From the NCBI RefSeq assembly GCF_023276355.1, contig NZ_JALLPL010000001.1, positions 1,116,001 to 1,180,000 on the forward strand: a DNA stretch of 64,000 nucleotides, read 5' to 3'. Of this stretch, positions 16,434-38,896 are shown piece after piece. The position numbers were made by a program, and so were the translations under genes. The first letter of the stretch is position 1; each line of letters begins with the position of its first letter. A model generated the notes under the pieces. It saw nothing but the letters and a program-made list of their open reading frames with translations, did no database searches and had not been told where the DNA came from. Source of the stretch: Haloplanus sp. XH21. GTDB lineage: Archaea; Halobacteriota; Halobacteria; Halobacteriales; Haloferacaceae.

Positions 16434-16457
16434 GATATGTGTTGGGCCGGGCGGTCG

Positions 16458-16463: not shown

Positions 16464-16472
16464 CTTTCGGCA

Positions 16473-17924: not shown

Positions 17925-18065
17925 AAGTAGTCGCCGCACGTGTAGCGGGTTGATCCGTAGTCATCGACTTGGAGTCAATAACTTTCTGTTTCACCGGTGA
18001 AGTCGTCAACTGGTCTTCCGTCTCGGCACTCTTTTGATGCCGCTACCTGTAGTCGTGGCCGAACT

Positions 18066-19166: not shown

Positions 19167-19187
19167 CGTTCTCTCCGAGTCGGTGAA

Positions 19188-19193
19188 TATATT
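19188..19193 (+). promoter_or_regulatory. TATA-like box of the paired epimerase genes
   Basis: TATATT lies 24-29 bases before the ATG at 19217. It follows the stop of the GT4 gene by only 22 bases, so the two epimerase genes downstream may have their own transcript. Confidence 0.55.
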
Positions 19194-19216
19194 ACGCTCA
19201 TCCGCCCAGTCACGGT

Positions 19217-21249: not shown

Positions 21250-21418
21250 AGCGAGAGGTGATGTGGCGTCGTCGACTCATGAACCGTCTTTCGCGATGGG
21301 TCGAACACCGCTCCTTCGGTGTGCTCTGTCCGGACTTCCCGTCCGATACTCGAGAAGCAATCAACATCCAGACGATCGAAAAGGCCTGCCAACACGTGGA
21401 TCACTCGCACTGATTTCG

Positions 21419-22582
21419 ATGACTCTCTCGAGACGACTCTACCGTCGCCTTCGACCGTACATCGCGACGGGCTATCGCCACATCCTCGGTTCGCGCGTGT
21501 TGACCCGCGCGGAACTATTGGACGACCCGCCCGCTGGATACACCGTTCACCGGTTCGGAACGGCCGAACGATACGAGTTCGACCGGCCGAGGCACGTTGG
21601 CGACTTGCCGTCAGTCATCGAAACGAAGGTCGGCGAGTGTACTGCCCCTGCGCCATTCGTCATCGCCGCCGATGATGCGACGGTGATCGGTCCGTCCGCG
21701 GTAATCAGCGTCGATGGACGTCTTCTCCTCGAATCGGCCCTCGGCGGATACGCGCGCTTAGTCGACGCGTCGGTTCTGGCGTTACTTTCCGGTCAACTCC
21801 CTCTCGAAACCCGATTGCAGCGCCCGGACTATCGATACGACGACCCCGTCTTCTCGCTCGTCGGGCCATGGGTGACCGAGTACTACCACTGGCTCGTGGA
21901 CTATCTCGTGCAGGTGTTCGCTCTCGAGGTCTACTAGGAACGAACGGGGCAGAACCCGTGGGTGTTGATCCCTGCCGATCCCCCATCCTGGCTCCTGTCC
22001 TCACTCTCGCTGGCCGGCGTGGACACGGACCGTCTCATCGAGTGGTCCGGGACCCGTGCTCGCTGTTCGCACGCCGTTCTCGGATCACTCCGCCGGAATA
22101 CGAGTTCGACGAGCGACGGGTACATCCACTCGCCCGCGGCGGCAGCCCGACTCGGCGAGCGGATTCGGAAGTCCGTGGCTGGGACGCATTCGACCGGTCC
22201 GGGACGCCGTCTCTACGTCTCCCGGGCCGATACGACGGACCGCCGCGTCCGGAACGAGGACGCGCTGCTGTCAGTACTCGATGACTACGGGTTCGACCGG
22301 ATCGTTCCGGGAGAGCTCTCCTTCGAGACGCAGGTCCGTCGGTTCTCGAACGCCGAGATCGTTCTCGGCCCTCACGGAGCCGGACTGACTAATATGATTT
22401 TCAGCGAGGAGGCGACGCTCATCGAACTGTTCGGGTCGTATCGGAACGCCTGTTTTTTCGCGCTGGCGAAGGGGATGGGTCACGAGTACGTGAGCGTGAC
22501 GTGTCAGTCCGCGGGATCCGATATGATCGCCGATACCGAGGCTATCGCGTCGCTACTCGACGATATCGTTCCTCATGATTAG
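21419..22582 (+). pseudogene. GT61-family (DUF563) glycosyltransferase broken by an in-frame TAG
   Basis: The frame runs from ATG at 21419 to a TAG at 21935-21937, then continues in the same frame with a recognisable C-terminal half to 22582. The N-terminal part ends in TEYYHWLVDYLVQVFALEVY. After the stop come ERTGQNPWVLIPADPPSW and later the family signature GPHGAGLTNMIFSEEATLIELFG. Joined, they give about 387 residues, the expected length for a GT61 enzyme. One base change (GAG to TAG) would explain the break. Either the gene is dead in this strain, or it is read through, or the base is a sequencing error. Confidence 0.8.
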
Positions 22583-22702
22583 CTCCTCTCGCCGGCGGTA
22601 TCAGGGAATGGTTGCCGATGAAGTTCGGCTTCTCATCGACGAGACCCCCCCTGGTTCGCACTCCCCGGAAAATGTCGCCGATGGGTCCGGAGAAAACCCC
22701 GC

Positions 22703-23749
22703 TCAGGCGGTGTCCAGTTCGTTCCGGAGCGCGTCGGCAATCTCTTCGAAGATCTCCCGGAGGTCGTACGACCGCTCCCAGCCCGGATAGTGAGACCGCA
22801 CTTTCGACAGGTCGGATATCCACCACTGGTGGTCGGCCTTGCGCTGGTCGCCGTACGTGTACGAGAGCGAGTTCCCGGTCACGTCCTCGATGAGATCGAA
22901 CGATTCACGAAGCGAGATGGAGTTTTCCCGACCCCCGCCGACGTTGTAGACCTCGCCTGGTCGCGGGTTCTCAAGATACCGCAGGAACAGGTCGGCCAGA
23001 TCTCGTGCGTGAATAACATCACGCACTTGGTACCCCTCGTAGCCGTAGATGGTCAGTTCTTCGCCCGTCAGTGCGAGTTTGACGAAGTATGGCTCCCAGT
23101 TGTGGAGTTCGACGGCCCGTGCCGCACCGCCCGTGATACATCCCATCCGGAAACACGCTGCGTCGAGGTCGTACATTCGGGCGTACTCCTGCACGTACAG
23201 ATCGGCGGATGCCTTCGACACGCCGAACGGTGTGTGCATGTTCTGGTCGATGCGGAGTGATTCGTCGAACCCCTCAAACAAGGTTTCGTCGACCGGTTCG
23301 AACCGCTCACCGACTTTTTCGTACGAGAAGAAATTCGGCACCTCGCCGTAGACTTTGTTCGTCGACGTGAAGACGAAGGGAATATCGTCGTTGTGGGTCC
23401 GCACGGCTTCGAGTAGGTCGAGCGTCCCACGGACGTTGATATCGAAATCCTCGACCGGCATTTCGATGGATTTCGGGTGTGACGGTTGGGCGGCGGTGTG
23501 TATCACGCCGTCGACTGACGCGACGATATCCTCCATCTCGTCGTCCCGAATGTCCATCACGCGGTGGTCGATGTTCTCATCAAGGAGCCGGGTTTCGGCA
23601 GTTCGCTCGGTGTCGCCCGCCGCTCCGAAGATGTCACCGCGAGCGTAGTTGTCGACACTGATGACCTCGTAGCCGTTCTCGACGAGCAGTCGACAGCATT
23701 CGGATCCGACGAGTCCTGCCCCACCGGTGACGAGGATGACCTCTGACAT
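22703..23749 (-). CDS. CDP-paratose 2-epimerase (RfbE)-like NAD-dependent epimerase
   Basis: 348-residue extended SDR. It has ILVTGGAGLVGSECCRLL at the N-terminus, FTSTNKVYGEVPN, FRMGCITG and the NVGGGRENSISLRE segment seen in CDP-tyvelose (paratose 2-) epimerases. The active-site YxxxK has Phe for Tyr (TPFGVSK), so proton transfer must differ or the substrate hydroxyl is handled otherwise. In Salmonella and Yersinia RfbE makes the 3,6-dideoxyhexose tyvelose. A DegT-type 3-dehydrase and RmlA/B/D-like genes lie a few kb away, which fits a deoxysugar route. Confidence 0.68.
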   Translation of the reverse strand: MSEVILVTGGAGLVGSECCRLLVENGYEVISVDNYARGDIFGAAGDTERTAETRLLDENIDHRVMDIRDDEMEDIVASVDGVIHTAAQPSHPKSIEMPVEDFDINVRGTLDLLEAVRTHNDDIPFVFTSTNKVYGEVPNFFSYEKVGERFEPVDETLFEGFDESLRIDQNMHTPFGVSKASADLYVQEYARMYDLDAACFRMGCITGGAARAVELHNWEPYFVKLALTGEELTIYGYEGYQVRDVIHARDLADLFLRYLENPRPGEVYNVGGGRENSISLRESFDLIEDVTGNSLSYTYGDQRKADHQWWISDLSKVRSHYPGWERSYDLREIFEEIADALRNELDTA

Positions 23750-23799
23750 CTATCTCTCAGTTCAAGCGACCGTGTGTAAAACCTTCTGAACTAGGCGCT

Positions 23800-24540
23800 T
23801 CAATCGAGTACATGGTAGATTTTTCTCCCGAGCGGATACAAACCGGTCCGCCGCAGCAGGGCAACCGTTCGCTCCGTGACGAGCGAATCGATGACTCCCG
23901 TATAGATCAGCCTGGCACCCGTTCGAACCCGTGATTCTCGCCAGCGCTCGGTCGCGACGTCCTGTGCGTACGACTTCACGATATCCTTGGCTTCGGGCGG
24001 CACGGCAACGATCACGTCTTCGACGACGACGATGTAATACTCCGGTCCCAGTTCGTCGCGTATCGTCAGGATGACCTCGTCGATCGTGGGCCAGTCGTCG
24101 GGGTCGTGGGGCCGTGGCGGCGGCGAAAGGAAATCGCGAGCGTCGTCGATGAACAGGAACTGCTCACCGTCCGCGCCGCCGATCGCCGCTAGTTCTTCTA
24201 GGAGCGGACATTCGTACTCTTCACCCGCCGTCTCGCCGCCGGAGTAGTGCGCGTCTAGCCAGAAGACGGCCGAGTCGTCGAGACGCTCCACGACGCCCGG
24301 GAGCATCTCCTGTGACGAGCCGTGAAGGAACTCGATATTATCGATATCACCGTACCGCTCGGTCGTTCGCTCGTACAGGTCGTCGCCGAGTTCGATCGTC
24401 ACGACGGTTTGGAACGGTCCACTCGCCCACGCCGCCGTTTCGCCGTGAAGCGTCCCCGTCTCGACGAACGACTCGACCGAAAACGCCTCTCGAACGCGCG
24501 TGATCAGGTCACGAGGTGGTCCGATGCGAATCTCTCCCAT
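23800..24540 (-). CDS. putative class I SAM-dependent methyltransferase-fold protein
   Basis: 246 residues. FVETGTLHGETAAWASG near residue 30 resembles motif I of class I methyltransferases, TVVTIELGDDLYERTTERY a second strand with an acidic end, and VFWLDAHYSGGE and QFLFIDDARDF later core strands. The family is seen in surface-polysaccharide clusters, and location between an epimerase and a fucosyltransferase-like gene suggests sugar methylation. No substrate can be named, and the fold might serve another transfer. It starts with ATG and is followed after 50 bases by the epimerase gene on the same strand. Confidence 0.55.
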   Translation of the reverse strand: MGEIRIGPPRDLITRVREAFSVESFVETGTLHGETAAWASGPFQTVVTIELGDDLYERTTERYGDIDNIEFLHGSSQEMLPGVVERLDDSAVFWLDAHYSGGETAGEEYECPLLEELAAIGGADGEQFLFIDDARDFLSPPPRPHDPDDWPTIDEVILTIRDELGPEYYIVVVEDVIVAVPPEAKDIVKSYAQDVATERWRESRVRTGARLIYTGVIDSLVTERTVALLRRTGLYPLGRKIYHVLD

Positions 24541-24621
24541 AACGGTGGTCTACGCCCGGGTCAGATAAACGGGCGGGATTTGACGGATAGAAGACGGACC
24601 TCGACTGATCGTCGAACGGGG

Positions 24622-25632
24622 TTATTTTACGATCTGTCCCAGAATCGGATGATCTCGGCTATCGCGGAGTGGATCGTCAGCTCGGTCGAATCCATCCTGC
24701 TCGACGCCCGGATAGAGCGGGACGACAGGACACTCACCGAGGATTGCGGCGAACACGCTGAACGTACTGGGCGGTGTCAGAACCTCGTCACAGAGGGACA
24801 GTTCGGTGAAGTTCTCGACGTAGTGGCCGGGGCCAACTGCCTCTCCCGTGGCGAAGGTGAACGAGTCGTCGGCAAACAGGTCTGCATTCTGTCTCTCGTC
24901 GGACGCGATGACGAAGCCGACATCTTGCGACGGGAACTCGGCGGCGTACGCCTCCATCAGTTCCTTGTACCGTCTGGACTCGAAGAAGTACTTGCCGTCG
25001 TTCCAGGTCCGGTAGTCGCCCTGTCGTATCAATACTCCCACCAGTTTGTCGTGTTTTTCGCGAAGCGGCTCGATGAACGACTCCGCCACGGAGCGGTGTT
25101 CCTCGCCGGGTTGGAGGCGTGTTCGAATCGTGGGTAGATATTTCGATACGAGCGGCCAGCACCGGACACCCCAACCGGCGAGCAGCGTCATATCCTTTGA
25201 TCGCAGGCGGTCTACGTTCGCCTCGTCCGTGAGGTCGAACTCGTCGTACTGCTCACCGGGAATGTCGAAGAGCGCGTGTGGCTTCCCGCCCACGATACTC
25301 TGAGCGTTCCGCTGCCGCTGGGCGAAGTAGTGGAGCGCCTGATGTCGGAATCGATTGATGGGATAGAAATCCCGGATAGAAGCGAGACGTTCCCACTCCC
25401 AGAAGATGCGGACGAATGGTTTCCAAAACCCGTCGAACTCGAGGTCGGAGAGGTCCACGAGTTCCAGATCATCTCGACCGTACGCGTCTATGTATGGAAC
25501 GAACGCGAGGTCAAACACCTCGAATTCGGGGTGTTCAAGCTGAAACGCCAGCAGGTTCGCGTAATTTATCAGCTGGTTTCCCAGACGCCCGCCGCCTTTC
25601 GTGTATACGATCGTCCCGCGAGAACTCCCCAT
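24622..25632 (-). CDS. GT11-like (alpha-1,2-fucosyltransferase family) glycosyltransferase
   Basis: 336 residues. The N-terminal KGGGRLGNQLINYANLLAF matches the GGLGNQLFQYA signature of GT11 enzymes, and GVLIRQGDYRTWNDGKYFF corresponds to their donor-binding HxRRGDY motif, with Gln for the second Arg. These proteins transfer a deoxyhexose such as fucose from a GDP-sugar. No GDP-fucose synthesis gene is certain here, though the GDP-mannose-like epimerases upstream could supply a donor. An AT-rich TTTAATCG lies about 30-36 bases before the ATG. Confidence 0.7.
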   Translation of the reverse strand: MGSSRGTIVYTKGGGRLGNQLINYANLLAFQLEHPEFEVFDLAFVPYIDAYGRDDLELVDLSDLEFDGFWKPFVRIFWEWERLASIRDFYPINRFRHQALHYFAQRQRNAQSIVGGKPHALFDIPGEQYDEFDLTDEANVDRLRSKDMTLLAGWGVRCWPLVSKYLPTIRTRLQPGEEHRSVAESFIEPLREKHDKLVGVLIRQGDYRTWNDGKYFFESRRYKELMEAYAAEFPSQDVGFVIASDERQNADLFADDSFTFATGEAVGPGHYVENFTELSLCDEVLTPPSTFSVFAAILGECPVVPLYPGVEQDGFDRADDPLRDSRDHPILGQIVK

Positions 25633-25987
25633 TGTCTGTGTCGCTCGGTTGGTGGTATTTCGATTAAACCTTTTCTTGTCCCCGCGGACGCGTTTAGATA
25701 CGGGTCCGTCCGAAGGCGACTGCCTGCACTCGATTTTTACTGGCCCGGTGCGGCGTGATCGACCATACTCGGAGAGCGGCTCACCTCAAACGAATCGGTC
25801 GACTGTATTTCGATTCCCATCAATATTATGTCGAAACTATCACGGAATAGATACTGCCAGCAGCCACGGAACGACGTCGACGGGACCGTCACCGAAGAAC
25901 CCGCACTCCCCGAGTCACGAAATCGGGTCACTGCGCCGTTCCTTTCAGGGGCCGGTGCCGGCCTACGTCCAGCGGAACGTGTCGGGT
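25633..25987. other. gene-free 355-base gap in the sugar cassette
   Basis: No convincing frame is found on either strand. The right-hand boundary is the stop codon of the rmlB-like gene. The left end holds the promoter of the GT11-like gene (TTTAATCG on the minus strand at 25661-25668). The middle is more AT-rich than the flanks, for example around CAATATTATG near 25823. It could be the scar of a lost gene; no recognisable remnant remains. Confidence 0.5.
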
Positions 25988-26914
25988 TTATCGATCCAGA
26001 TAGTACTCGACGGTCGTTCGGAGCGCATCGTCGAAATCGTGCATCGGTTCCCACCCTAATGACCGAACTTTGGATGCATCCAGTGCGTACCGTTGGTCAT
26101 GTCCCGGCCGGTCCTCGACGAAGGTGATGAGATCATGTGGTTTCCCAAGAATGTCGAGAATCCGGCGTGTTACTTCGAGATTGGTCATCTCGTGTCCAGA
26201 TCCGATATTGTACACCTCGCCTACATCGCCGTCGCGCAAAACGAGGTCGATCGCTCGGCAGTTATCCATAACGTATGTCCATTCTCGAACGTTGGTGCCA
26301 TCGCCGTAGACCGGTAGTGTGTCACCGTTCGCAGCGTTCAGGATGAATTTCGGGATCAGTTTCTCTGGGTCCTGTCTGGGACCGAAGTTGTTCGACGATC
26401 GCGTCGTGACGACTGGCAGCCCGTGAGTTACGTAGTAGCTGTTTACGAGCAAGTCCGCTGCCGCTTTCGACGCGGCATACGGATTCCGTGGATTGAGCGG
26501 ATCATCCTCTGAAAACGAGCCTTCCGCTATCTCTCCGTACACCTCGTCGGTGGAGACCTGAAGGAACCGCTCGAGATCGGCTTCAATGGCCGCATCGAGA
26601 AGCGTCTGCGTCCCCTCGACATTCGTTCTGATGAACGGCTTCGATCCCTCGATAGACCTGTCAACATGTGATTCGGCCGCGAAATTGACGACTGCGTCGA
26701 CCGTCGAGACGGCATCTTCGACGAGTTCGGTGTCGCAGATATCTCCCTCGATGAATTCGTGTCGTGGATTGTCCAGCGCATCGCCGAGATTGTCCAGCGA
26801 GCCGGCATATGTCAAGTTATCGAACGTCACGATATCGTCGTCGGTGTGGTCCAACAGATAATGGACGAAGTTAGATCCGATGAATCCCGCTCCGCCGGTG
26901 ACGAGGATTCTCAT
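25988..26914 (-). CDS. rmlB: dTDP-glucose 4,6-dehydratase RmlB/RfbB
   Basis: 308 residues. MRILVTGGAGFIGSNFVHYL with NLTYAGSLDNL is the hallmark N-terminus. VSTDEVYGEI supplies the Thr-Asp-Glu catalytic trio, NPYAASKAAADLLV the Tyr/Lys pair, and SSNNFGPRQDPEKLIPKF the substrate-binding loop. The enzyme turns dTDP-glucose into dTDP-4-keto-6-deoxyglucose, the branch point to rhamnose and other deoxysugars. ATG at 26914 was chosen over a 21-codon extension because a TATATC box sits 27 bases upstream. The partner nucleotidyltransferase is at 29.1 kb. Confidence 0.92.
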   Translation of the reverse strand: MRILVTGGAGFIGSNFVHYLLDHTDDDIVTFDNLTYAGSLDNLGDALDNPRHEFIEGDICDTELVEDAVSTVDAVVNFAAESHVDRSIEGSKPFIRTNVEGTQTLLDAAIEADLERFLQVSTDEVYGEIAEGSFSEDDPLNPRNPYAASKAAADLLVNSYYVTHGLPVVTTRSSNNFGPRQDPEKLIPKFILNAANGDTLPVYGDGTNVREWTYVMDNCRAIDLVLRDGDVGEVYNIGSGHEMTNLEVTRRILDILGKPHDLITFVEDRPGHDQRYALDASKVRSLGWEPMHDFDDALRTTVEYYLDR

Positions 26915-26935
26915 AGGCCAATCTAGGCGAGCAAC

Positions 26936-26941
26936 GATATA
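26936..26941 (-). promoter_or_regulatory. TATA-like box of rmlB
   Basis: TATATC on the minus strand, 22-27 bases before the rmlB ATG at 26914. The same 121-base gap holds an opposite TTATGA at 27002-27007, about 30 bases before the DegT-family gene, so this is a divergent promoter pair. Confidence 0.55.
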
Positions 26942-27035
26942 GGCTATTCGTTCGGAGTTGTGGTTCCGCCATCTCACGCGGCGGGGAAACCATCGAAGCG
27001 GTTATGATAAGGGATGCCGAACCTGCACAAATAAC

Positions 27036-28241
27036 ATGGAGCATGACGGTTATCGCGTCCCCTACGCGCGAGCGACGTACGGACAGGAAGAGCGAGAGGC
27101 GGTAAACGAGGTGCTCGATCATCCCGAGAGCCTAGTGGGTGGTGAGTTCACTTCGGAGTTTCAGGACCGTGTCTCTACCCTGTTCGGCAAGGAACACGGA
27201 GTAATGGTGAACTCCGGTTCTTCTGCGAACCTCTTAGCGATCGAACTATTGGATGCGGAGCCGGGTAGTGAAGTCATCACCCCGTTAGTTACGTTCTCGA
27301 CGACCGTTGCGCCGATTATCCAGAAGGGACTGGTTCCGACCTTCGTTGACGTCGGCGTCGGTGATTATCTGCTTGACATTGGGCAAGTCCGGGAAGCGAT
27401 CACTGACGATACCGTGGCGATTGTGGCTCCGTCTCTGCTGGGCAACGTACCCAACTACGCCGAACTCCGGTCGATCGCGGACGAACACGATCTGCAACTC
27501 ATCGAGGACTCTGCGGACACGATCGGCGCCAAAATACAGGGTCAACCAACGGGCGAATTCACCGATATTTCGACGACGAGTTTCTACGGATCGCACGTCA
27601 TCACGTCGTTCGGGACGGGTGGCATGATCGCCGTTGACAACGATGAGTCGATGAAACGTCTCAAGAAACTACGTGGTTGGGGGCGTTCGTCGGCGGCCGA
27701 CGAGACCAACGATATTGAGGAGAGACTTGACCGTATTCTCGGCGACGTTCACTACGACTCGAAGTTCGTATTCGACGAAATCGGATATAATTTCTTGCCG
27801 ACGGAAGCGAGTGCTGCTTTCGGCGTTGAACAAGTCCGGAAACTGGATTCGTTCATCAAACGCCGACAGGAAGTGTTTGCCACACTCGACGATTTCTTCA
27901 GCGAGTACCGGGAGTGGTTCGTGCTCCCGGAACAGCGCTCGGATGTCGAGACCTGTTGGCTCGCGTATCCGCTGACAATTCGACCAGAGGCCCCCTTCGA
28001 TCGTCGGGCCATCGTTCGGCACTTGGAAATGAACGGAATACAGACCCGTTCGCTCTGGTCGGGCAATCTGCTGAAACATCCCGGATTCGAACGGATCGAC
28101 GCCCGACTCCCATTCGACGACTATCCGGAAGCGAATCGCATTATGGCCGACTCGTTCGTCATCGGCGCACACCAATCCATGTCGGACGAAGATGTCGTGT
28201 ACATCGAAGAGACGTTTGAGGACCTCTTCGTCGACTACTGA
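27036..28241 (+). CDS. DegT/DnrJ/EryC1-family sugar enzyme with His in place of the PLP lysine (3-dehydrase-like)
   Basis: 401-residue fold-type I PLP protein. VNSGSSANLLAIE (residues 58-70) binds the PLP phosphate, and IEDSADTIGAKIQG contains the ring-stacking Asp region. The lysine motif reads STTSFYGSHVITSFGTGG, with His187 where sugar aminotransferases have the Schiff-base Lys. This change is known in the C-3 deoxygenating enzymes ColD and E1/RfbH. The cysteine cluster that carries the E1 [2Fe-2S] centre is missing (RGWGRSSAADETND instead), so ColD-like chemistry is favoured. The product would be a 3-deoxy sugar. The stop overlaps the next start by one base. Confidence 0.75.
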   Translation: MEHDGYRVPYARATYGQEEREAVNEVLDHPESLVGGEFTSEFQDRVSTLFGKEHGVMVNSGSSANLLAIELLDAEPGSEVITPLVTFSTTVAPIIQKGLVPTFVDVGVGDYLLDIGQVREAITDDTVAIVAPSLLGNVPNYAELRSIADEHDLQLIEDSADTIGAKIQGQPTGEFTDISTTSFYGSHVITSFGTGGMIAVDNDESMKRLKKLRGWGRSSAADETNDIEERLDRILGDVHYDSKFVFDEIGYNFLPTEASAAFGVEQVRKLDSFIKRRQEVFATLDDFFSEYREWFVLPEQRSDVETCWLAYPLTIRPEAPFDRRAIVRHLEMNGIQTRSLWSGNLLKHPGFERIDARLPFDDYPEANRIMADSFVIGAHQSMSDEDVVYIEETFEDLFVDY

Positions 28242-29140
28242 TGCGAGTTCTGATAACCGGCGGAGCGGGATTCGTCGGCCGGAAGTTAGTCTCTCATCTC
28301 TCCGAGCACGGCCACCAAGTCGTCGCCACGTATCACACGAACACCCCTGACGTGGAAGCCGTCGAAACCCACAAACTCGACGTTCGGGATCGGACCGAGG
28401 TCGGGTCGCTGATCGAAGAAGTTTCGCCGGATGCTGTCGTTCACGCGGCCGCACTGGTTGATGCCGATGCCTGCGAGCAGGATCCAGACTTGGCTCGAGA
28501 AGTCAACGTTGAGGGAACAGACGCTGTCGTCCGAACATGTGAACGAATTGATGCAAAAATTGTCTTATTTTCCAGTTCGTTCGTCTTCTCCGGTGGGGAA
28601 CGCCTATATGTAGAGGATTCGACACGCGACCCAATCAATACGTACGGCGAGACGAAAGTCGACGCCGAAGATATCGTTCGCGACGCCGCAGTCCCGTCGC
28701 TTGTCGTTCGCATTGACCAACCTTACGGGTGGTGTGCCGACTGGCAGTCGCCATCGATGATCGAGTGGGTGCTGGATGGTTTGCAAGGGTCAGGGTCTCT
28801 TGAGGTTTTCACCGACTGGTACAACAATCCCGTGTACAACGGCGACGTGGCTGCCTGTATTCAACTACTGCTAGAAGGACAATATGATGGCGTCTATCAC
28901 GTCGTCGGTCCGGAGTACATTAGCCGCTACCGATGGGCTCGACGCATCGCGGCGATATTCGGATACGATGTTGACCGCATCGTGCCGTCGCTATCTTCCG
29001 ATGTGCCGCTGCCGGCGACGCGACCGAACGCCAAACTGTCCTCAACACGACTCGTCGAGCGGACAGGATACGCGCCGAAGGGGATATACGACGGTCTTCG
29101 TTGCATGCGTGAGACACGCCCGGAACTGTCGAACGGCTAG
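28241..29140 (+). CDS. RmlD-like dTDP-4-dehydrorhamnose reductase family protein
   Basis: 299-residue SDR. MRVLITGGAGFVGRKLVSHL binds NAD(P), AVVHAAALVDADACEQDPDLAREVNVEGT is the RmlD family signature, and NTYGETKVDAED supplies Tyr and Lys. RmlD reduces the 4-keto group of a dTDP-4-keto-6-deoxyhexose. Here it directly follows the 3-dehydrase-like gene (one-base overlap), so its substrate may be a 3,6-dideoxy-4-ketosugar instead of 4-ketorhamnose. The codon mix around 28540-28620 is AT-richer than the island edges. Its last four bases overlap the end of the converging rmlA. Confidence 0.8.
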   Translation: MRVLITGGAGFVGRKLVSHLSEHGHQVVATYHTNTPDVEAVETHKLDVRDRTEVGSLIEEVSPDAVVHAAALVDADACEQDPDLAREVNVEGTDAVVRTCERIDAKIVLFSSSFVFSGGERLYVEDSTRDPINTYGETKVDAEDIVRDAAVPSLVVRIDQPYGWCADWQSPSMIEWVLDGLQGSGSLEVFTDWYNNPVYNGDVAACIQLLLEGQYDGVYHVVGPEYISRYRWARRIAAIFGYDVDRIVPSLSSDVPLPATRPNAKLSSTRLVERTGYAPKGIYDGLRCMRETRPELSNG

Positions 29141-29856
29141 TCCTCCCGACGACGGTCGCGAACATCGGCTGACGCCTGAAACACGCCCTCTGGGGTGCCG
29201 GCATCGTACCAACTGCCGTCGATTCGCTCATACCGCAATGTCCCGGTTCGCAAATACTGTCGGTTGACGTCGGTGATTTCGTATTCTCCCCTTTCAGACG
29301 GCGTCAAGTCGCTGATCACGTCGAACACTTGCGAATCAAACACGTAGAGGCCGACGACCGCGTCGTTCGATTCGGGGTTCTCGGGCTTCTCCTCCAGACC
29401 GATGACGTGTCCCTCGTTATCGACCGATGCGACGCCATACGCGGAGGGCTCGGACACCTGTTTGAGGAAGATACGTGCATCCTCTTCGGACCGAAGTGGA
29501 CCGATCTTCTCACCGAGATCTTCGAGGATAATATTATCACCCAGAATGACCACGAACTCGTCGTCGACGAACTGCTCGGCGAGACCGACGGCGTGGGCGA
29601 TGCCTTTCGGTTCCGACTGGACCTTGTACGAAAAGTCGATATCGAAGTCGCTCTCATTTTCGAGCAGTTCGATGTACTTGCCGATATGGTCCGCGTTGCT
29701 AATGATCATGATCTCGTCGATGCCGGCGTCTGCAAGCGTATTCACCGGATAGTAGATCATCGGTTGGTCGTAAATCGGGATCACGTGCTTGTTGACGACA
29801 CGAGTCATCGGGCGGAGCCGAGACCCCTTGCCCCCGGCGAGTACGACACCTTTCAT
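29137..29856 (-). CDS. rmlA: glucose-1-phosphate thymidylyltransferase RmlA
   Basis: 239 residues. MKGVVLAGGKGSRLRPMTRVVNKHVIPIYDQPMIYYP is the classic RmlA start, with VVILGDNIILED and EKPENPESNDAVVGLY further on. It makes dTDP-glucose (or, in related enzymes, another NDP-glucose) from glucose-1-phosphate, the entry step for RmlB. It lacks the C-terminal extension of long RmlA forms. A TATA-like box lies 27-32 bases upstream. It is the second nucleotidyltransferase of the island, next to aglF at 15.7 kb. Confidence 0.9.
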   Translation of the reverse strand: MKGVVLAGGKGSRLRPMTRVVNKHVIPIYDQPMIYYPVNTLADAGIDEIMIISNADHIGKYIELLENESDFDIDFSYKVQSEPKGIAHAVGLAEQFVDDEFVVILGDNIILEDLGEKIGPLRSEEDARIFLKQVSEPSAYGVASVDNEGHVIGLEEKPENPESNDAVVGLYVFDSQVFDVISDLTPSERGEYEITDVNRQYLRTGTLRYERIDGSWYDAGTPEGVFQASADVRDRRRED

Positions 29857-29882
29857 CAGGAAAGCATCCGAGCGGATTGCGG

Positions 29883-29888
29883 ATATAA
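29883..29888 (-). promoter_or_regulatory. TATA-like box of rmlA
   Basis: TTATAT on the minus strand, 27-32 bases before the rmlA ATG at 29856, between it and the upstream GT2 gene. It suggests independent transcription of rmlA. Confidence 0.5.
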
Positions 29889-29958
29889 GTTATCGTGTGC
29901 AGCGGGTCTCGAGTGAATTTCCGGAACTGCAGTCACGACCACGACGCTCCCGTTTGAC

Positions 29959-31116
29959 TCAGGAGTTTCTGTTCGCGTACCATCGCCGGATTCGCTCGTC
30001 GATTCCCGACGGCAGGATTCTTGCGACGAAGTGATACCAGACACGTAGCGATTTACGCGGGATCAGCCCCTCTTGTACGTCGCGTTTAAGCGAGTCGATT
30101 GGCAGGGGAAGTACGACTAAATAGTAGATGTATCGCCGCCGAAACGCGCGCGATTGCCATATATCTTCGAGTGATCGTACATCCCCGTTTAGCGCGGCGT
30201 GTTTCAGCGGTGCAAGTGCGGTATCCTTCTGGAGGGTCGCCCACGCCGCGAGTTGCGCGGCAAAACGGGTTTCCACGCGCGTGAACAGGTCCTTGCTCTT
30301 CTGGTCGCGTAGTATTTCGTCGACTGCCTTCATTCGATACTGTTGCAACTGGACACGAAGTTCCAAATCGGACCAGTCGAAGTCGCTCCAGAAGCGGTGT
30401 TCTCCCTCGTATTGGTAATGGTCGACGAGACAGAGATGGCGGGATGAGAGAATCGCCCGACCATTGACCATCGCTTGAATCAGCAACACGTTGTGAATAT
30501 ACAGCGATCCGAAATATTCCTCCGCCGCTTCGAGGTCGATGGCCGAGCGTTCGAGGATGATTCCGCCGATGTAGTTCCGTCGCCACGTATGGTTGGCGAA
30601 CGGATGCGGAATACGGTTCACGAAGGCAGCGAGCGAATCGTAGCCGGTCTCACACTCCTGCATCAGCGGAACGGACTCGTCCCAGTCGTACTGCTCGTCG
30701 TCGACAGGTCCATATCCGGCGACGATACTGCTGAATTCGATGGTCGGATTCTCGATCAGGCTGAGTGCCCAACGAAGGTTCTCGCTGACGATTTTATCTT
30801 CATCTGCCAGCGGCATGAGATATCTCCCTCGAGCGAGCGTGAGACAGCGAAAGAGGTTCTTCTCATACCCGATATTCGTCTCGTTTTCGAAATAACGGAG
30901 CCGTTCGTCGTCGAAGTGGTCGATAGCTGCACGCGTGTCGTCATCCGATCCGTCGTCGCAGACGACGAGTTCTACACCGCCGTGGTCGAGTTCGAGGACG
31001 TGCCCGATGACTTTTGCCAGGCGCTCGGCGTTGTTGTACGTCGGAATACAGATGCTCAACGCGACGCCGTCTTGCTCCGTTGATTTCCGTGACGATTGAC
31101 TGCGTGTGGCTGTCAT
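29959..31116 (-). CDS. GT2-family glycosyltransferase
   Basis: 385 residues. The GT-A domain opens with VALSICIPTYNNAERLAKVI, followed by ELVVCDDGSDDDTRAAI and the acidic PLADEDKIV at the usual metal-binding position. No membrane helix is evident, so it is a peripheral enzyme acting at the inner face. The C-terminal 150 residues are helical and basic with no known motif. ATG at 31116 is preferred to an upstream in-frame GTG. It lies in the AT-richer middle of the island and probably adds one sugar of the glycan. Confidence 0.8.
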   Translation of the reverse strand: MTATRSQSSRKSTEQDGVALSICIPTYNNAERLAKVIGHVLELDHGGVELVVCDDGSDDDTRAAIDHFDDERLRYFENETNIGYEKNLFRCLTLARGRYLMPLADEDKIVSENLRWALSLIENPTIEFSSIVAGYGPVDDEQYDWDESVPLMQECETGYDSLAAFVNRIPHPFANHTWRRNYIGGIILERSAIDLEAAEEYFGSLYIHNVLLIQAMVNGRAILSSRHLCLVDHYQYEGEHRFWSDFDWSDLELRVQLQQYRMKAVDEILRDQKSKDLFTRVETRFAAQLAAWATLQKDTALAPLKHAALNGDVRSLEDIWQSRAFRRRYIYYLVVLPLPIDSLKRDVQEGLIPRKSLRVWYHFVARILPSGIDERIRRWYANRNS

Positions 31117-31321
31117 CGTGATAGTTAATCGCCGGAGAGACTCGACACGGTTGCTGTGACGGGTCTGCACCGACGAGATGTGAAGTATATCTCGGGGGTC
31201 GATTAAAAGTTCCTTTCGCCGGGCTGCGTGCTGTGGGATGGGACACCCCCAGAAAATAGCTACGACTATCAGATCACGCGAGTATCGTCTCCCAGAACCG
31301 CACGCAGATCGACGAAAGGAC

Positions 31322-31327
31322 TAAATC
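31322..31327 (+). promoter_or_regulatory. TATA-like box of the glycosyltransferase at 31.3 kb
   Basis: TAAATC 22-27 bases before the ATG at 31349. The spacing argues for the MSDGF start instead of the TTG 21 bases upstream. Confidence 0.45.
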
Positions 31328-31348
31328 TTGGTCAATAAAATCCGAACC

Positions 31349-32272
31349 ATGTCCGACGGATTCGATCTGCAAACTCCCGTCGCGCTTTTCGCTTATAACA
31401 GACCCGACTATACGCGGCGAGTGCTTGAACGGATCCGCGAGGCCGACCCTTCGTGTCTCCTGTTCGTGGCGGATGGTCCCAATCCAAACGACGAGACGGA
31501 TCGACGGCGCACCCAGGCCGTGCGCGACCTCGTTTTGGAGGATTCATTTTCGTTCGAAGTCAAATGTGAACTTGCGGACGAGAACATGGGCCTGAAGCGT
31601 CGTTTTTCGACCGGGTTAGACTGGGTGTTCGACCAAGTGCCGGAAGCGATTATTCTTGAGGATGATATCCTTCCCGAGATGGACTTCTTCCGGTACTGTC
31701 AACTCCTTCTGGATCGATTTCGTGACGACGACAGGGTTATGGAGATAACCGGCCGGAACCAGCTCGAACAGTGGCAGAGAGACGATTATGACTACCACTT
31801 CTCGTACTACGGCGGCATCTGGGGATGGGCGACGTGGCGGGATGCGTGGGACGAGTTCGATCCCGAAATGAGGTTGTGGGCCAACCCAACAGTTCGTGAC
31901 CGAATCCGCGACCTCGTCTCCGATCCTGAGCAGTTCCGGTATCTAGAGCGAGTGTATGACAGCACCGCTGCGGGTGAGACTGAAAGCTGGGCGTATGCGT
32001 GGGGATTCGCTCGCCACCTCAACAGCGGTCTCTCCGTCGTCCCGTCCCGAAATCTCGTAGATAATATCGGGTTCGGCGAGAAGTCGACGAATACACAGAA
32101 CGTGGGAAGCGGCTTCGTGGGAAAAGAGACGTTCAATTTGGACTTTCCCCTGAACCATCCGCCGTACGTCGCCGTTGATCAGGAATACGATGACCGGTTC
32201 CATCGATTGCGGCCCGCGAGATGGAAGGTTATGCCTGGGATGCATTATTTGACCGAAGCGCTCGGACTGTAG
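31349..32272 (+). CDS. GT2-like glycosyltransferase (HlpA-type)
   Basis: 307 residues. Features are PVALFAYNRPDYTRRVLERI at the start, LFVADGPNPNDETD, NMGLKRRFSTGLDWVF, EAIILEDDILPEMDFF as the acidic metal site, and FSYYGGIWGWATWRDAWDEFD. This set marks GT-A glycosyltransferases often annotated as GT2 or haemolytic-protein-like in polysaccharide clusters. The EDD site and the WGWATW loop are intact, so activity is expected. It is a single gene facing right between two leftward transferase genes. Donor and acceptor unknown. Confidence 0.75.
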   Translation: MSDGFDLQTPVALFAYNRPDYTRRVLERIREADPSCLLFVADGPNPNDETDRRRTQAVRDLVLEDSFSFEVKCELADENMGLKRRFSTGLDWVFDQVPEAIILEDDILPEMDFFRYCQLLLDRFRDDDRVMEITGRNQLEQWQRDDYDYHFSYYGGIWGWATWRDAWDEFDPEMRLWANPTVRDRIRDLVSDPEQFRYLERVYDSTAAGETESWAYAWGFARHLNSGLSVVPSRNLVDNIGFGEKSTNTQNVGSGFVGKETFNLDFPLNHPPYVAVDQEYDDRFHRLRPARWKVMPGMHYLTEALGL

Positions 32273-32305
32273 TGGTGTGGACCACAGAAAACGGAGTCGA
32301 CTCGA

Positions 32306-33562
32306 TCAGATAATCTGCTGCCGATAGAGATCGAGATACGCGCCGGCCACCTTCGATTGCTCGTAGCGCTCGACGGCGTGGTCCCGCGCAGTCGTCGACA
32401 TCCGAGTCCGGTCAGCTACGTCCAACACCCACTCAATTCCACTCGCCAGCCCGTCCGCCTCGTACGGCTCCGCCAACCACCCCGTCTCCCGATGATCGAC
32501 AATATCTTTCGGCCCCGTCGCGTCGAACGCCACCACGGGCGTCCCACACGCCAGCGCCTCTGACACCGTCTGCCCGAACCCCTCGTAGCGCGAGGGGACG
32601 ACCATCACGTCGGCCGCCGAGTAGAGCAAGACGAGACTCGGGTCGTCGTGGAGGTAGCCGACGTAATGTGTCGGGAAGCCGAAGTCTGGTGGGTCCTCCG
32701 GTTCGTTGGCACCGAAAACGACGAGTTCGACGTCCTCTAGCTCCCCCGAGAGCGACTGCAGCGCGTCCTGCAACAGGTCCGCGCCCTTCCGGTGGTCGCC
32801 CATCGGGTCGACGGCTCCGAACAATACCAGCCGTTTGTCCTCGGGCAGGTCGAAGAAGTCCCGGCCCAGTTCGGGGTCGCGGGGACGATAGGTGTCCGTA
32901 TCGAGGGCGTTCGGAATCACCTCGATACGTCGGTCTCCGAACAGCGAACTTCGGCGCGCCTGGTCGGCCAGCCACGTGCTCGGCGCGACGATGGTGAGAT
33001 CCAGGTCGTCCCAGTGGCGGTGTTTGCGGTGCCAGGTGAGTCTGGAGAGGTCGAACACCGAGTCGGAGCCGAGTTGCGGACACGACCCACAGCGCTCTTC
33101 GAAGCGGTCACAGCCATCGGCGTAGTGACACCCGCCGGTGAGCGCGGCCATGTCAGGCAAGCGCCAGACGACGGGACGGTCAAGCCGACCGATGGTCCGC
33201 ACCGAGAGCGTTCCGCGCCACACCCAGTTCAGATGGACCACATCGGGGTTCACTTCGCGTATGCGTTCGAGTTTCCGCTCCGGGAGCCAGTTGATGCCGA
33301 ACCCGCTCGACTGGCCGTAGAGACGGAGGGGGAGCATGTCGACGTGCGGTCGGGCGAGACTCCAGGCGCGACCGAGTGTCGATTCGGGACCGATAATCGT
33401 CGGGTCGTCAGTGGATTTCTCTTGGACGAGCATCCGAGAGTCGACGCCGATGCGGCGGAGACCGTGGTGGATGCGCTTGGTCGCCGTCGCCGACCCGCCG
33501 GTGTCCGACGCGTTGACGAGCAAGGGCTGAACGTCGGCGGCGCTGTCCGTCACGGCCGCCAC
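32306..33562 (-). CDS. GT4-family glycosyltransferase
   Basis: 418 residues from a GTG start; a second in-frame GTG three codons later is equally possible. The N-terminal GT-B half includes NASDTGGSATATKRIHHGL and NPDVVHLNWVWRG, and a four-cysteine patch CHYADGCDRFEERCGSC. The C-terminal half has NALDTDTYRP, LVLFGAVDPMGDHRKGADLL and the donor-binding EGFGQTVSEALACGTPVVAFDATGP. That E-x7-E pattern is the GT4 hallmark. The gene ends 34 bases from the converging neighbour. Confidence 0.85.
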   Translation of the reverse strand: MAAVTDSAADVQPLLVNASDTGGSATATKRIHHGLRRIGVDSRMLVQEKSTDDPTIIGPESTLGRAWSLARPHVDMLPLRLYGQSSGFGINWLPERKLERIREVNPDVVHLNWVWRGTLSVRTIGRLDRPVVWRLPDMAALTGGCHYADGCDRFEERCGSCPQLGSDSVFDLSRLTWHRKHRHWDDLDLTIVAPSTWLADQARRSSLFGDRRIEVIPNALDTDTYRPRDPELGRDFFDLPEDKRLVLFGAVDPMGDHRKGADLLQDALQSLSGELEDVELVVFGANEPEDPPDFGFPTHYVGYLHDDPSLVLLYSAADVMVVPSRYEGFGQTVSEALACGTPVVAFDATGPKDIVDHRETGWLAEPYEADGLASGIEWVLDVADRTRMSTTARDHAVERYEQSKVAGAYLDLYRQQII

Positions 33563-33865
33563 CTCGATCCGTCAGCCATCAGCGTCGGTGTCGGCGGATA
33601 CATCGGTTCGGGATGGACCGGGTGTGTGGAAAAACGTTCTCCCTCCGGATTCGCCTCTCCACCGGCACCAACATGACCAGTGGTTACACATCTACGTTCT
33701 TTGCCGCCTGAAGGCGGTCCTTTCCACGGATTGGCCCACAATGCCCCCGTCGACGACGTGCACGATTCGGACGAGGACGCACGTGTCGGAGTATCGCCGG
33801 AACGCTCCTCCACAGTTTCTCCCTGACAGTAAGAATATTGTATTCCTCGACGGTCGATCACCCGG
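33563..33865. other. gene-free 303-base gap with one small hairpin
   Basis: No supported frame. It contains a short stem-loop at 33703-33718 (GCCGCC, TGAA, GGCGGT) and an AT-rich run near 33830 (AAGAATATTGTATT). The gap separates two leftward genes, so it should hold the promoter of the GT4 gene at its left end; no clear TATA-like box is seen there. Confidence 0.4.
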
Positions 33866-34531
33866 TCAGATATCCAGACAGTTTTCGTCTCGATAGAGGA
33901 TGCCCGTGCAGGATTCGGTCAGTCGCTGTGCCTTCGGCCCGACAAACGGGAGTGCGCGGAACCCCGCGTCCCGAAAACGCGCCCAGTCACTGTCGTCCCA
34001 CCGTTCGAAGTCGTCGAGAATGACGACGCCGTGATCCGTTATCGCCTCTAGAGTTGGGCCCACGCAACTCTGCCGAACGCGGCCATCGATGACGACGATA
34101 TCGAACGATCCGTGGGCCGTCACTTCCGATGCGTAGTCATCGAGGTCCGGTTCATATACGACGGTTAAATTCGACGGGGAACGCTCTTGCATCGCCGTGG
34201 CCCACTCCTTCGAGTCTTCGACGGCGACTACCTCCTTGACGCGGTCGCTGTACCACAGCGAAGAGTGACCGCTCCCGAATTCGAACACGCGAAACTCGGT
34301 CCGGGTCCGAGGTTCGATGAAATCGATCGTGGGATACGTGTACCACGGAATCGGCTCTCCGTCTTGGTCAACGGGGGCACCGACCTCGTTGCTCCGCATC
34401 CAGCCCTTCGTTCGGAGATAACTGTTATCCGCGTAGTACCACCGTATCAGTGGGTGTGAGTCGAGAACGGACCGAATCGAGTCCTGAACGATATCAGGGA
34501 GAGAGTGATACACGCGCGTCGGATCTATCAT
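33866..34531 (-). CDS. class I SAM-dependent methyltransferase-like protein
   Basis: 221 residues. RVFEFGSGHSSLWYSDRV is motif I, EVVAVEDSKEW the motif II acidic end, and FDIVVIDGRVRQ and GVVILDDFERW later strands of the Rossmann-like fold. The N-terminal 70 residues may hold the acceptor. Methylated sugars occur in haloarchaeal N-glycans (for example methylated glucuronic acid by AglP in Haloferax volcanii), so glycan methylation is plausible, but this is not close to AglP by any motif I can point to. It lies 85 bases downstream of aglG on the same strand. Confidence 0.6.
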   Translation of the reverse strand: MIDPTRVYHSLPDIVQDSIRSVLDSHPLIRWYYADNSYLRTKGWMRSNEVGAPVDQDGEPIPWYTYPTIDFIEPRTRTEFRVFEFGSGHSSLWYSDRVKEVVAVEDSKEWATAMQERSPSNLTVVYEPDLDDYASEVTAHGSFDIVVIDGRVRQSCVGPTLEAITDHGVVILDDFERWDDSDWARFRDAGFRALPFVGPKAQRLTESCTGILYRDENCLDI

Positions 34532-35689: not shown

Positions 35690-38600
35690 ATGAGCGACGA
35701 TCAGAGACAGGGGTCCTCGTCGGTCGCAGACCTCTTTTTCAACTGGTATCACGTCCCCGCGCTCGTCCTCGTCGTTGCGACGATGCTCGCTATCCGCCTG
35801 CAGGCGTATAGCAACTTCATCCGCGACGGGACAGTGTACTTCTCGGGGAATGACGCCTGGTATCACCTCCGTCAGGTCGAGTATACGGTGCGGCATTGGC
35901 CCTTCACGATGTCGTACGACCCGTGGACGAACTTCCCGTACGGCACGAACGCGGGGCAGTTCGGCACGCTGTACGACCAGCTGGTCGCCACCGCGGCGCT
36001 GGTCGTCGGCCTCGGCAGCCCGTCACAGGAACTCGTCGCGAAGACGCTGCTGGTCGCCCCGGCCGTGTTCGGCGCACTGATCGCCGTGCCGGTGTACGCC
36101 ATTGGCAAGCGGTTCGCCGGGCGCGCGGCCGGCCTCTTCGGGGCCATCGTCCTCCTGCTCCTCCCGGGGCAGTTCCTCCAGCGCGGCCTCGTCGGCTTCG
36201 CCGACCACAACATCGCCGAACCGCTCTTCCAGACCATCGCCGTGCTCGCGCTGATGATTGCCATCGCGGTCGCCGTCCGCGAGAAACCGATTTGGGAACT
36301 CGTCGTCGACCGCGATATGGACGCCCTCCGACAGCCACTCATCTGGAGCGCGCTCGCGGGCGTCGCGGTCGCCCTCTACATGTGGGTGTGGCCGCCGGGT
36401 GTCCTGCTCGTCGGCGTCTTTGGCGTCTACCTGGTCTACCAGCTTACGAGCGACTACGTTACTGGTGGCTCGCCTGAACCCATCGCGTTCGTCGGCGTCG
36501 TCTCGATGGTCGTGGCCGCGGTGCTGATGCTCGTGCAGTTCGACACGGTGTCGTTCGGCGCCACCGACTTCTCCCTCCTCCAGCCCGTCGTCGCGCTCGG
36601 CGTCGGCGTCGGCGCGGCCTTCCTCGCCGGGCTTGCACGCCTCTTCGACGACCGCGCGATCGATCGTACCTACTACCCGCCGGCGGTCGTCGGCCTCATC
36701 GCCCTCTCCCTCGGCCTCATCGCGGTCGCGCTCCCGTCACTGTTCGGGACGATCCAGTCCAACGCCCTCAGCTTCATCGGCTTCAGTGCCGGCGCCGGTC
36801 TTCGAACCATCTCCGAGGCGCAGCCGTATCTCTCACCCGACATCCTCCAGCAGAACCGCATGACTGCGACCGGGCGCATCATGGCCGACTACGGCTTCAC
36901 GCTCTTCACGGGCGTTGCGGCCGTCATCTGGCTGGTCGCGAAACCGCTGCTCCGTGACTGGGAGACCGAACGCGTCGGCTACGTGTTCGGCTCGCTCGCG
37001 ATCCTGGGACTGCTCTTCCTCGTTCCCGGCCCGTTCCAGGCTGTCGCCGACGCGATCGGTGTGGTCTCCGAACTCGTCGGCGTCGCGATCGTCGCGGCCA
37101 TCCTCTTTGGCGCCGTCATCCAGACCAACTACGACAGCGAGAAACTCCTCTTCGTCGTCTGGGCGGCGTTCATGACCTCTGCTGCGTTCACGCAGGTCCG
37201 GTTCCACTACTACCTGGCACCGATCGTCGCCATCGCGAACGCCTACCTCCTCGGGGAGATCCTGACGTATCTCGACTTGCGCGTCCCCTCCTTCGACGCG
37301 CTGCGCGACCTGCAGGGATACCAGGTGCTCGCGGTGCTCGCGGCCGCGATGCTGATCATCACGCCCGTGCTCCTCGTGCCGATAAACGTTCGCAACACGG
37401 GTAACGCCGACTTCGACCAGAGTAGCACCGCCTGGGAGACAGCACAGGGGACTGGCCCTGGTGCGGTGACGGAGTGGAACGACTCGCTCAACTGGATGGA
37501 GTCGAACACGCCCGCCCCTGGCACCTTCGGCGGTGCGAGTGAGGAAATGGAGTACTACGGCTCCTACGACCAACCGTCGGGGGGCGACTACGACTATCCG
37601 GCCGGCGCCTACGGCGTCCAATCCTGGTGGGACTACGGCCACTGGATCACCGTCCGCGGTGAGCGCATCCCGAACGCCAACCCGTTCCAGCAGGGGGCGA
37701 CCGACGCCGCGAACTTCCTGCTCGCGCCCAACGAGTCGGCCGCACAGAGCGCCCTCGGCGAGCGCGACACGGAGGCGGCGGGCACCCGGTACGTGATGGT
37801 CGACTGGCAGATGGTCAACCCGTCGTCGAAGTTCGGCGCTCCGGTCGTCTTCTACGACGCGTCGAACGTCTCCGCGTCGGACTTCTACAACCGCGTGTAC
37901 GCCAGCGACCTGCGCGGGAGCTTCCCCGTCCGCACCCAGCGCTACTACGAGAGCCAGATGGTGCGGCTGTACGCCTACCACGGGAGTTCGGCACAGCCCC
38001 AGCCGATCGTCGTCGACTGGGAACAACGGCGCGTCGAGACCCAGAGCGGCGAGACGATCACCGTCCGAGCGGGGCCGCAGGACCAACGAACGGTGCTCCG
38101 ACAGTTCGACAACATGTCCGCGGCGGAAGCCTACGTCGAAAACGACAGCACGTCACAGATCGGTGGCGTCGGCCACTATCCCAGCGAGCGTGTGCCAGCG
38201 CTCGAACACTACCGGCTGGTGCAGGTGAGCGAGTCGAACGCGTCCAGTTCCTCGCAGTACTCGCTCTCGGCCCGCCGCGCCTTCGCCATGACGGGCCTCC
38301 CGCCGTCGTCGCAGACGCTCTACGAGCCCTCGTGGGTGAAGTCCTTCGAGAAGGTGCCCGGCGCGACCATCACGAGCGACGGACTGCCGCCGAACACGTC
38401 GGTCCGCGCGTCGGTCCCGATGCGCGTTCCGGCGACCAACGAGACGTTCACGTACACCCAGCAGACGCGGACGAACGAGGACGGGGAGCTGACGATGACG
38501 CTTCCCTACTCGACGACGGGCTACGACGAGTACGGGCCGTCGAACGGCTACACGAACGTGAGCGTCCGGGCGACGGGCCCGTACACGCTCGAGTCGGCGC

Positions 38601-38896
38601 TCGCGAACGACAACGGCTCGCTCGTGCAGTATCGCTCCCAGGTGAACGTGAGCGAAGGTCGGGTCAACGGCGACATCGAGGGCACGCGGGAGGTGACACT
38701 GGAGCAACGCAACCCGCTCCAGAACCTGTCGCTCGGCGGCGGTAACGAGTCCGAATCGATCGACCCCGACGCGTCGATCACGGAGACGACCGCTGATTCC
38801 GCCGATGACACGTCGAGCACGCCCGACGGTGTGTCAGGAAGTACCGACACGCGGACGGCGTTCGACGCTCCCCGCGTCGCCGTCGCTCGGAACTAA
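35690..38896 (+). CDS. aglB: oligosaccharyltransferase AglB
   Basis: 1068 residues. About 13 membrane helices fill the first 570 residues, and a globular C-terminal domain faces outside. The catalytic acidic motif is GNDAWYHLRQV (residues 53-63), and the sequon-binding motif WWDYG is at 646-650 in GVQSWWDYGHWITVRGERIPNANPF. AglB moves the finished glycan from dolichol phosphate to Asn in N-X-S/T of exported proteins. Its length and layout are those of haloarchaeal AglB. It is the centre of the island and probably co-transcribed with the next gene. Confidence 0.97.
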   Translation: MSDDQRQGSSSVADLFFNWYHVPALVLVVATMLAIRLQAYSNFIRDGTVYFSGNDAWYHLRQVEYTVRHWPFTMSYDPWTNFPYGTNAGQFGTLYDQLVATAALVVGLGSPSQELVAKTLLVAPAVFGALIAVPVYAIGKRFAGRAAGLFGAIVLLLLPGQFLQRGLVGFADHNIAEPLFQTIAVLALMIAIAVAVREKPIWELVVDRDMDALRQPLIWSALAGVAVALYMWVWPPGVLLVGVFGVYLVYQLTSDYVTGGSPEPIAFVGVVSMVVAAVLMLVQFDTVSFGATDFSLLQPVVALGVGVGAAFLAGLARLFDDRAIDRTYYPPAVVGLIALSLGLIAVALPSLFGTIQSNALSFIGFSAGAGLRTISEAQPYLSPDILQQNRMTATGRIMADYGFTLFTGVAAVIWLVAKPLLRDWETERVGYVFGSLAILGLLFLVPGPFQAVADAIGVVSELVGVAIVAAILFGAVIQTNYDSEKLLFVVWAAFMTSAAFTQVRFHYYLAPIVAIANAYLLGEILTYLDLRVPSFDALRDLQGYQVLAVLAAAMLIITPVLLVPINVRNTGNADFDQSSTAWETAQGTGPGAVTEWNDSLNWMESNTPAPGTFGGASEEMEYYGSYDQPSGGDYDYPAGAYGVQSWWDYGHWITVRGERIPNANPFQQGATDAANFLLAPNESAAQSALGERDTEAAGTRYVMVDWQMVNPSSKFGAPVVFYDASNVSASDFYNRVYASDLRGSFPVRTQRYYESQMVRLYAYHGSSAQPQPIVVDWEQRRVETQSGETITVRAGPQDQRTVLRQFDNMSAAEAYVENDSTSQIGGVGHYPSERVPALEHYRLVQVSESNASSSSQYSLSARRAFAMTGLPPSSQTLYEPSWVKSFEKVPGATITSDGLPPNTSVRASVPMRVPATNETFTYTQQTRTNEDGELTMTLPYSTTGYDEYGPSNGYTNVSVRATGPYTLESALANDNGSLVQYRSQVNVSEGRVNGDIEGTREVTLEQRNPLQNLSLGGGNESESIDPDASITETTADSADDTSSTPDGVSGSTDTRTAFDAPRVAVARN

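Follow-up and report, generated by a model that had tools for sequence, protein, structure and literature searches.

The window analysed here, a 64-kb stretch of the Haloplanus sp. XH21 genome, holds an intact ORF of 401 aa (ATG at 27036) whose product is, in our estimation, quite probably an NDP-4-keto-6-deoxyhexose 3-dehydrase from a lineage of its own, akin to E1/RfbH but free of the cluster. Judged by sequence, this lineage is most likely a small and so far unnamed branch within the E1/RfbH-ColD enzymes. The enzyme is E1-like in sequence, and its PMP would have to be regenerated without an iron-sulfur cluster, most simply in the manner of ColD. E1 and ColD carry out the same deoxygenation and finish it either with cluster electrons or by glutamate-linked hydrolysis; an E1-like frame with E1-like pocket residues and without the cluster would thus allow the purpose, gain or loss of the cluster to be probed. 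The gene and the residues discussed below are:

27036..28241, plus strand: predicted His-type, Fe-S-free NDP-4-keto-6-deoxyhexose 3-dehydrase (E1/RfbH-like, DegT fold), 401 aa
27516..27518, plus strand: Asp161, matching E1 D194; K-type rows have Q or H here and ColD has E
27579..27605, plus strand: SFYGSHVIT motif, residues 182-190, with His for the PLP lysine (His187 codon 27594-27596)
27690..27692, plus strand: Ser219, where E1 has its Fe-S cysteine C251; 13/13 window-type rows have S and 23/23 RfbH rows have C

Sequence, fold and active site

The ORF, the one gene of its family found in its own genome, matches Pfam PF01041 (DegT_DnrJ_EryC1) with 254 bits, and its best NCBIfam model is RfbH at 319.5 bits, which is under the cut-off of 423 for that model. 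In a phmmer search against solved structures, E1 (CDP-6-deoxy-L-threo-D-glycero-4-hexulose-3-dehydrase, PDB 3bcx; its H220K entry is 3bb8) came top with about 213-214 bits and ColD second with 176 bits, while the recent putative 3-dehydratase 9wvy was a remoter match (128 bits) and aminotransferases followed after ColD and 9wvy. A structure prediction, which the first-pass annotation had proposed as a check, gave an AlphaFold2 model with a pLDDT of 94.2; its best fold match was E1 (Z 52.2, rmsd 2.0 over 384), followed by ColD (Z 49.8) and perosamine synthase (3bn1, Z 48.9). Because perosamine synthase scores so close behind E1 and ColD, fold alone cannot decide function.

The same annotation had read that His replaces the PLP lysine, as in ColD and E1/RfbH, and the alignment against ColD, RfbH/E1 and aminotransferases bears this out. 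By phmmer, His187 falls on H220 of E1, where the H220K entry has Lys, and the ColD entries have H, N or K at the matching residue (H188), as expected of H188 mutants. The column in a 52-row alignment is His in 13/13 window-type, 10/10 ColD-type and 23/23 RfbH rows and Lys in all five aminotransferase-type rows; since one of the latter, L048 (SFYPSKNMTVAGDGGM), has a loop of identical length to that of the window protein, gaps in the alignment do not account for the register of His187. Nor do the conserved residues show a lysine that could stand in at the Schiff-base position: K52, the only Lys that 11 or more of 12 relatives keep, lies immediately N-terminal to the phosphate-binding loop and is V in E1 and S in ColD. 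The 13 members compared (five haloarchaea, five alphaproteobacteria, one Bacteroidota MAG and two actinobacteria) all keep the His across Archaea and three bacterial phyla; on this sequence evidence, His187 is no isolated mutation. A one-residue insertion after the His was considered as a hallmark of the clade and rejected, as it is also present in 3/5 K-type rows.

The absence of the E1/RfbH cluster cysteines, also claimed earlier, was confirmed, with RGWGRSSAADETND in the corresponding region of the ORF. The E1 cysteines 193, 251, 253 and 261, which we take to be the four [2Fe-2S] ligands, correspond to Ala160, Ser219, Ala221 and Ile227 in the window protein. Each of the positions 251, 253 and 261 is Cys in 0/13 window-type versus 23/23 RfbH rows, whereas position 193 is Cys in 5/13 window-type rows but also in 10/10 ColD rows. 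The whole window protein contains a single Cys, and its haloarchaeal relative L003 contains none. PMC8987622 describes four cysteines for the cluster in both E1 and SpnQ, and ColD as being without a cluster.

Beside the PMP site, residues of the E1 type are retained: D161 in 12/13 and Y184 (Y217 of E1) in 11/13 window-type rows, and the window protein also shares W215 and R217 with E1/RfbH. ColD differs in having E for D161, F for Y184 and HGW for WGR, and 5/5 K-type rows have Gln or His at the position of D161. On the other hand, Ser186 next to His187 (11/13 window-type rows) is found in 10/10 ColD rows versus Ala or Pro in RfbH, and H379 (11/13 window-type rows) agrees with ColD, whereas RfbH has Tyr. 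Three positions are unlike both enzymes: residue 188 is V or I in the window clade and H in both E1 and ColD, residue 309 is Leu versus F in E1 (F345) and ColD, and at residue 194 (codon 27615-27617) all 13 window-type rows have N, T, S or G. The last is the position of the Glu of the GEGG loop, which is present in 23/23 RfbH, 10/10 ColD and 4/5 lysine-type rows, the fifth having Asp. Thus, the pocket cannot be classed simply with E1 or with ColD. In the two actinobacterial members (L044:12001-13161 and L045:11992-13215), Tyr184 is lost (Ser, Ala) and the neighbours compared include no sugar-pathway genes; perhaps these two proteins act on another substrate.

Relatives, trees and alternative readings

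When 391 Halobacteria genomes were searched, with up to four candidates scored per genome, 11 matched at E 1e-40 or better, comprising four window-type proteins (the own genome, L002, L003 and L004), six of the ColD type (SFFFSHHI) and one genome with the lysine type only. Within the family of the strain, a search of 170 genomes gave five with a match of E 1e-70 or better, three of them window-type (own, G126 and G715) and two ColD-type. Short-peptide patterns, which reach close relatives, were run against 84,980 species genomes and returned three loci, of which one was new, a Bacteroidia MAG at 46% identity. Plasmid records yielded 25 members, from Ensifer, Sinorhizobium, Roseibium, Labrenzia, Palleronia, Leisingera, Rhodococcus and Embleya, and seven of these were retrieved for comparison. 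The viral contigs searched held no relative. Phage records with a DegT match of 1e-30 or better numbered 57, 54 of them from Synechococcus phages; none exceeded 35% identity among the best 20 of the 57 (H31-H50), and one of these 20 is annotated as a CDP-4-dehydro-6-deoxy-D-glucose 3-dehydratase. Our literature search, limited in coverage, found neither a cluster-free E1 lineage nor 3,6-dideoxyhexoses in haloarchaea.

Trees were computed with IQ-TREE on 45 and then on 52 rows, the columns of the His motif and the Cys region being removed from both. The first omitted the exact repeats L002, L004, L016, L032 and L035, together with the second DegT of L041, which is cut. The second tree gained eight more RfbH rows and L069 and excluded the long branches L038 and L057. 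The window-type clade had a support of 100/100 in both trees (12 and 13 rows, respectively), and a quick FastTree recovered the same clade. It adjoins RfbH with a support of 98/95 in the 45-row and 92/91 in the 52-row tree, and the ColD-type rows form their own clade (98/96 and 96/94). However, an AU test of window-type and ColD rows as one clade gave p 0.040 and 0.157, so the ColD grouping is rejected weakly or not at all, and we dropped sisterhood to RfbH as a settled point. Within the window-type clade, L014 and L069 make up their own branch (100/98). Two archaeal His-type DegT proteins, L036:1501-2628 and L038:1501-2691, fell outside the E1, ColD and window clades in the first tree; L036 has no cluster cysteines, and L038 has four that are spaced differently.

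The label "ColD-like, Fe-S-free 3-dehydrase" given in the first pass stands in part. An Fe-S-free, His-type C-3 dehydrase is what the sequence predicts, but the kinship to ColD has to be corrected, because the phmmer scores and Z values given above, the tree and the Rml/Rfb neighbours described below all place E1/RfbH nearest; "ColD-like" would be fair only for the chemistry we infer, that is, for turnover without a cluster. A true ColD of the GDP-colitose pathway that has drifted in sequence would also be cluster-free and His-type, and the AU values for the ColD-joined tree leave it some room. ColD (GDP-4-keto-6-deoxymannose 3-dehydrase, 2gms/3b8x) has in common with the window protein the His for Lys, the lack of Fe-S ligands, the Ser before the His and the His at 379. 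We nevertheless consider such a drifted ColD very unlikely, as the ColD-type rows make a clade of their own, their neighbours are gmd genes in most of the loci examined versus RmlB or RfbG genes for the window type, and haloarchaea possess separate ColD-type genes.

An ordinary nucleotide-sugar aminotransferase, which would make a 4-amino-4,6-dideoxy sugar, is suggested by the DegT fold, the Pfam PF01041 match and, as the first-pass annotation had anticipated, by the default labels of the relatives: 12 of the 25 plasmid records with a member carry an aminotransferase label, and for the remaining 13 no gene is listed at that place. Moreover, according to PMC8987622, the His-type enzyme SpnQ can transaminate with PLP and glutamate, so that His alone is no proof of dehydration only; E1 and ColD showed no transamination under the same conditions in that text. 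We regard the aminotransferase as improbable here: perosamine synthase and other DegT aminotransferases have the fold in common with the window protein but keep their lysine where it and all other window-type rows have His, D161 stands in place of the Gln/His of the K-type rows, and the tree sets the protein inside the His-type group. In addition, 10/13 loci have an SDR-type reductase coupled to the gene or close by, and a 4-keto reductase at the locus argues against an amino-sugar product, which would need none. Under the dehydrase reading that we prefer, the default label of the relatives would be corrected. SpnQ itself (dTDP-4-keto-2,6-dideoxyglucose 3-dehydrase) resembles the window protein in its His and its dTDP-linked substrate class, but it carries a [2Fe-2S] motif according to the same paper; no 2,3-dehydratase was present among the window neighbours scanned.

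It is also conceivable that the protein is a C-3 dehydrase without its own cluster in which external electrons, from ferredoxin or flavin, reach the PMP-glucoseen, so that turnover would be E1-like and not driven by glutamate. The sequence, D161, Y184 and the tree, all closer to E1 than to ColD, speak for it, as do partial matches that haloarchaeal genomes contain to individual E3 domains, namely ferredoxin and reductase. Set against this are the complete lack of cluster ligands, the ColD-like Ser186 and H379, and the lack of E3 in the loci, and we think electron-driven turnover of this kind unlikely. A fused E3 was searched for in the own genome and not found (four partial matches), none lies near the 13 window-type loci, and none of 28 archaeal genomes has an E3-like match over all three domains. 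Since 18 of these 28 genomes do have an Fe-S RfbH, and E3 is present in only one (L051) of five RfbH loci examined with flanks, we rejected missing E3 as a sign of E3-independence and treat it as uninformative.

Gene neighbourhoods and the predicted pathway

The neighbours of the dehydrase gene in the window are:

25988..26977, minus strand: RmlB, dTDP-glucose 4,6-dehydratase, divergent from the dehydrase; over the TIGR01181 cut-off
28241..29140, plus strand: RmlD-like NDP-4-keto-hexose reductase, whose ATG begins on the last base of the dehydrase stop codon (TGATG)
29137..29856, minus strand: RmlA-type glucose-1-phosphate thymidylyltransferase, short form, convergent downstream
35690..38896, plus strand: presumed AglB-like oligosaccharyltransferase, assigned from its translation and lying in the same glycosylation island

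RmlB scored 429 versus a cut-off of 365 for dTDP-glucose 4,6-dehydratase. The RmlA and RmlD-like proteins have rmlA and rmlD as their nearest NCBIfam models but are sub-cut-off (238 of 361 and 183 of 224, respectively), and RmlA matched solved thymidylyltransferases at 174-217 bits versus 95 for the best uridylyltransferase. Around the operon, GC content is only 0.55-0.57, compared with 0.66-0.69 in most of the flanks, and the operon has a GC3 of 0.62-0.72 versus 0.89 in the AglB-like gene, which fits the expectation for an exchanged glycosylation island. The stretch 16001-34000, a glycosyltransferase and sugar-nucleotide island, shows a GC dip to 0.55-0.63. A haloarchaeal glycosylation island as the setting of a His-type, cluster-free dehydrase, which had been proposed from the letters of the window, is supported.

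Researchers have described a common opening of the reaction for E1, ColD and SpnQ, in which the 4-keto sugar becomes linked to PMP, a proton is removed by the His and the C3 hydroxyl departs; after that, E1 draws electrons from E3 via its cluster, and in ColD the intermediate is hydrolysed and glutamate serves to restore PMP (PMC8987622). A glutamate-driven C3-dehydratase of Campylobacter that releases alpha-ketoglutarate is also documented (PMC10440746). From the clade, the gene context, the predicted fold and the sequence, we infer the following chemical steps, substrate and glycan for the window. RmlA would make dTDP-glucose and RmlB would convert it into dTDP-4-keto-6-deoxyglucose. The dehydrase would bind PMP, non-covalently since His187 replaces the lysine, and form a ketimine at the sugar C4, upon which His187 would abstract a proton from PMP and the C3-OH would be expelled. 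Because there is no Fe-S cluster to supply electrons, the intermediate would most likely be hydrolysed as in ColD to a 4-keto-3,6-dideoxy sugar, ammonia and PLP, with glutamate converting PLP back to PMP, and the coupled RmlD-like reductase would then reduce C4. As the genome is without RmlC (0/1, with the control positive in 11/14; G126 and G183 also have none), the expected product would be a dTDP-3,6-dideoxy-D-hexose, paratose- or abequose-like. The proximity of the AglB-like gene alone suggests that this sugar may end in the N-glycan; 3,6-dideoxyhexoses in archaeal N-glycans are thus a prediction of the pathway.

Across the relatives, an SDR-type reductase is adjacent in 10/13 loci, directly or past one C-methyltransferase gene, and a nucleotidylyltransferase with the matching 4,6-dehydratase lies nearby in 9/13; L013 has no reductase beside it. 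G126 (L047) repeats the window set of RmlA, RmlB, dehydrase and RmlD-like reductase. The alphaproteobacterial and Bacteroidota relatives adjoin rfbF-rfbG, as RfbH does. The order is rfbF-rfbG-dehydrase-reductase in Ensifer and S. meliloti, rfbF-rfbG-dehydrase-C-methyltransferase-reductase in Roseibium, Leisingera and Palleronia, and rfbF-rfbG-rmlC-reductase-dehydrase in the Bacteroidia locus L015; a Sphingomonas locus with RfbH, used for comparison, reads E3-rfbF-rfbG-rfbH-rfbC-reductase. The L015 set presumably resembles the ascarylose pathway, except that a single cluster-free enzyme stands in for E1 and E3. An RmlC-like gene stands directly upstream of the dehydrase in L014 and in L069, which is from the genus of the window strain, and none occurs in the window genome, suggesting a D-series and an L-series of the product. 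We see about even chances for the wider picture, in which the window type would be a third His-type C-3 dehydrase lineage beside E1/RfbH and ColD, having an E1-like frame and a cluster that was never there or was lost, serving archaeal and bacterial pathways of both dTDP- and CDP-hexoses, and supplying haloarchaeal N-glycans with dTDP-3,6-dideoxyhexoses, of D-form without RmlC and of L-form with it.

Haloarchaea also have clusters of gmd, a ColC-like reductase and a ColD-type dehydrase (L046:6028-9158, L048:6838-9988 and L049:8409-11597), which probably encode a GDP-colitose-like pathway; gmd neighbours were found in 4/5 ColD-type loci examined with wide flanks. Within the one genus, L069:6443-10477 and window 25988-29856 are two versions of the window-type cluster, with and without the RmlC-like gene, and cassette exchange is the probable origin of this difference. 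In three alphaproteobacteria, the C-methyltransferase between dehydrase and reductase (L039:13395-14639, L041:13200-14483 and L042:13222-14478; domains Methyltransf_13/23/14 in L039, where they were scanned) possibly points to a 3-C-methyl branched dideoxy sugar.
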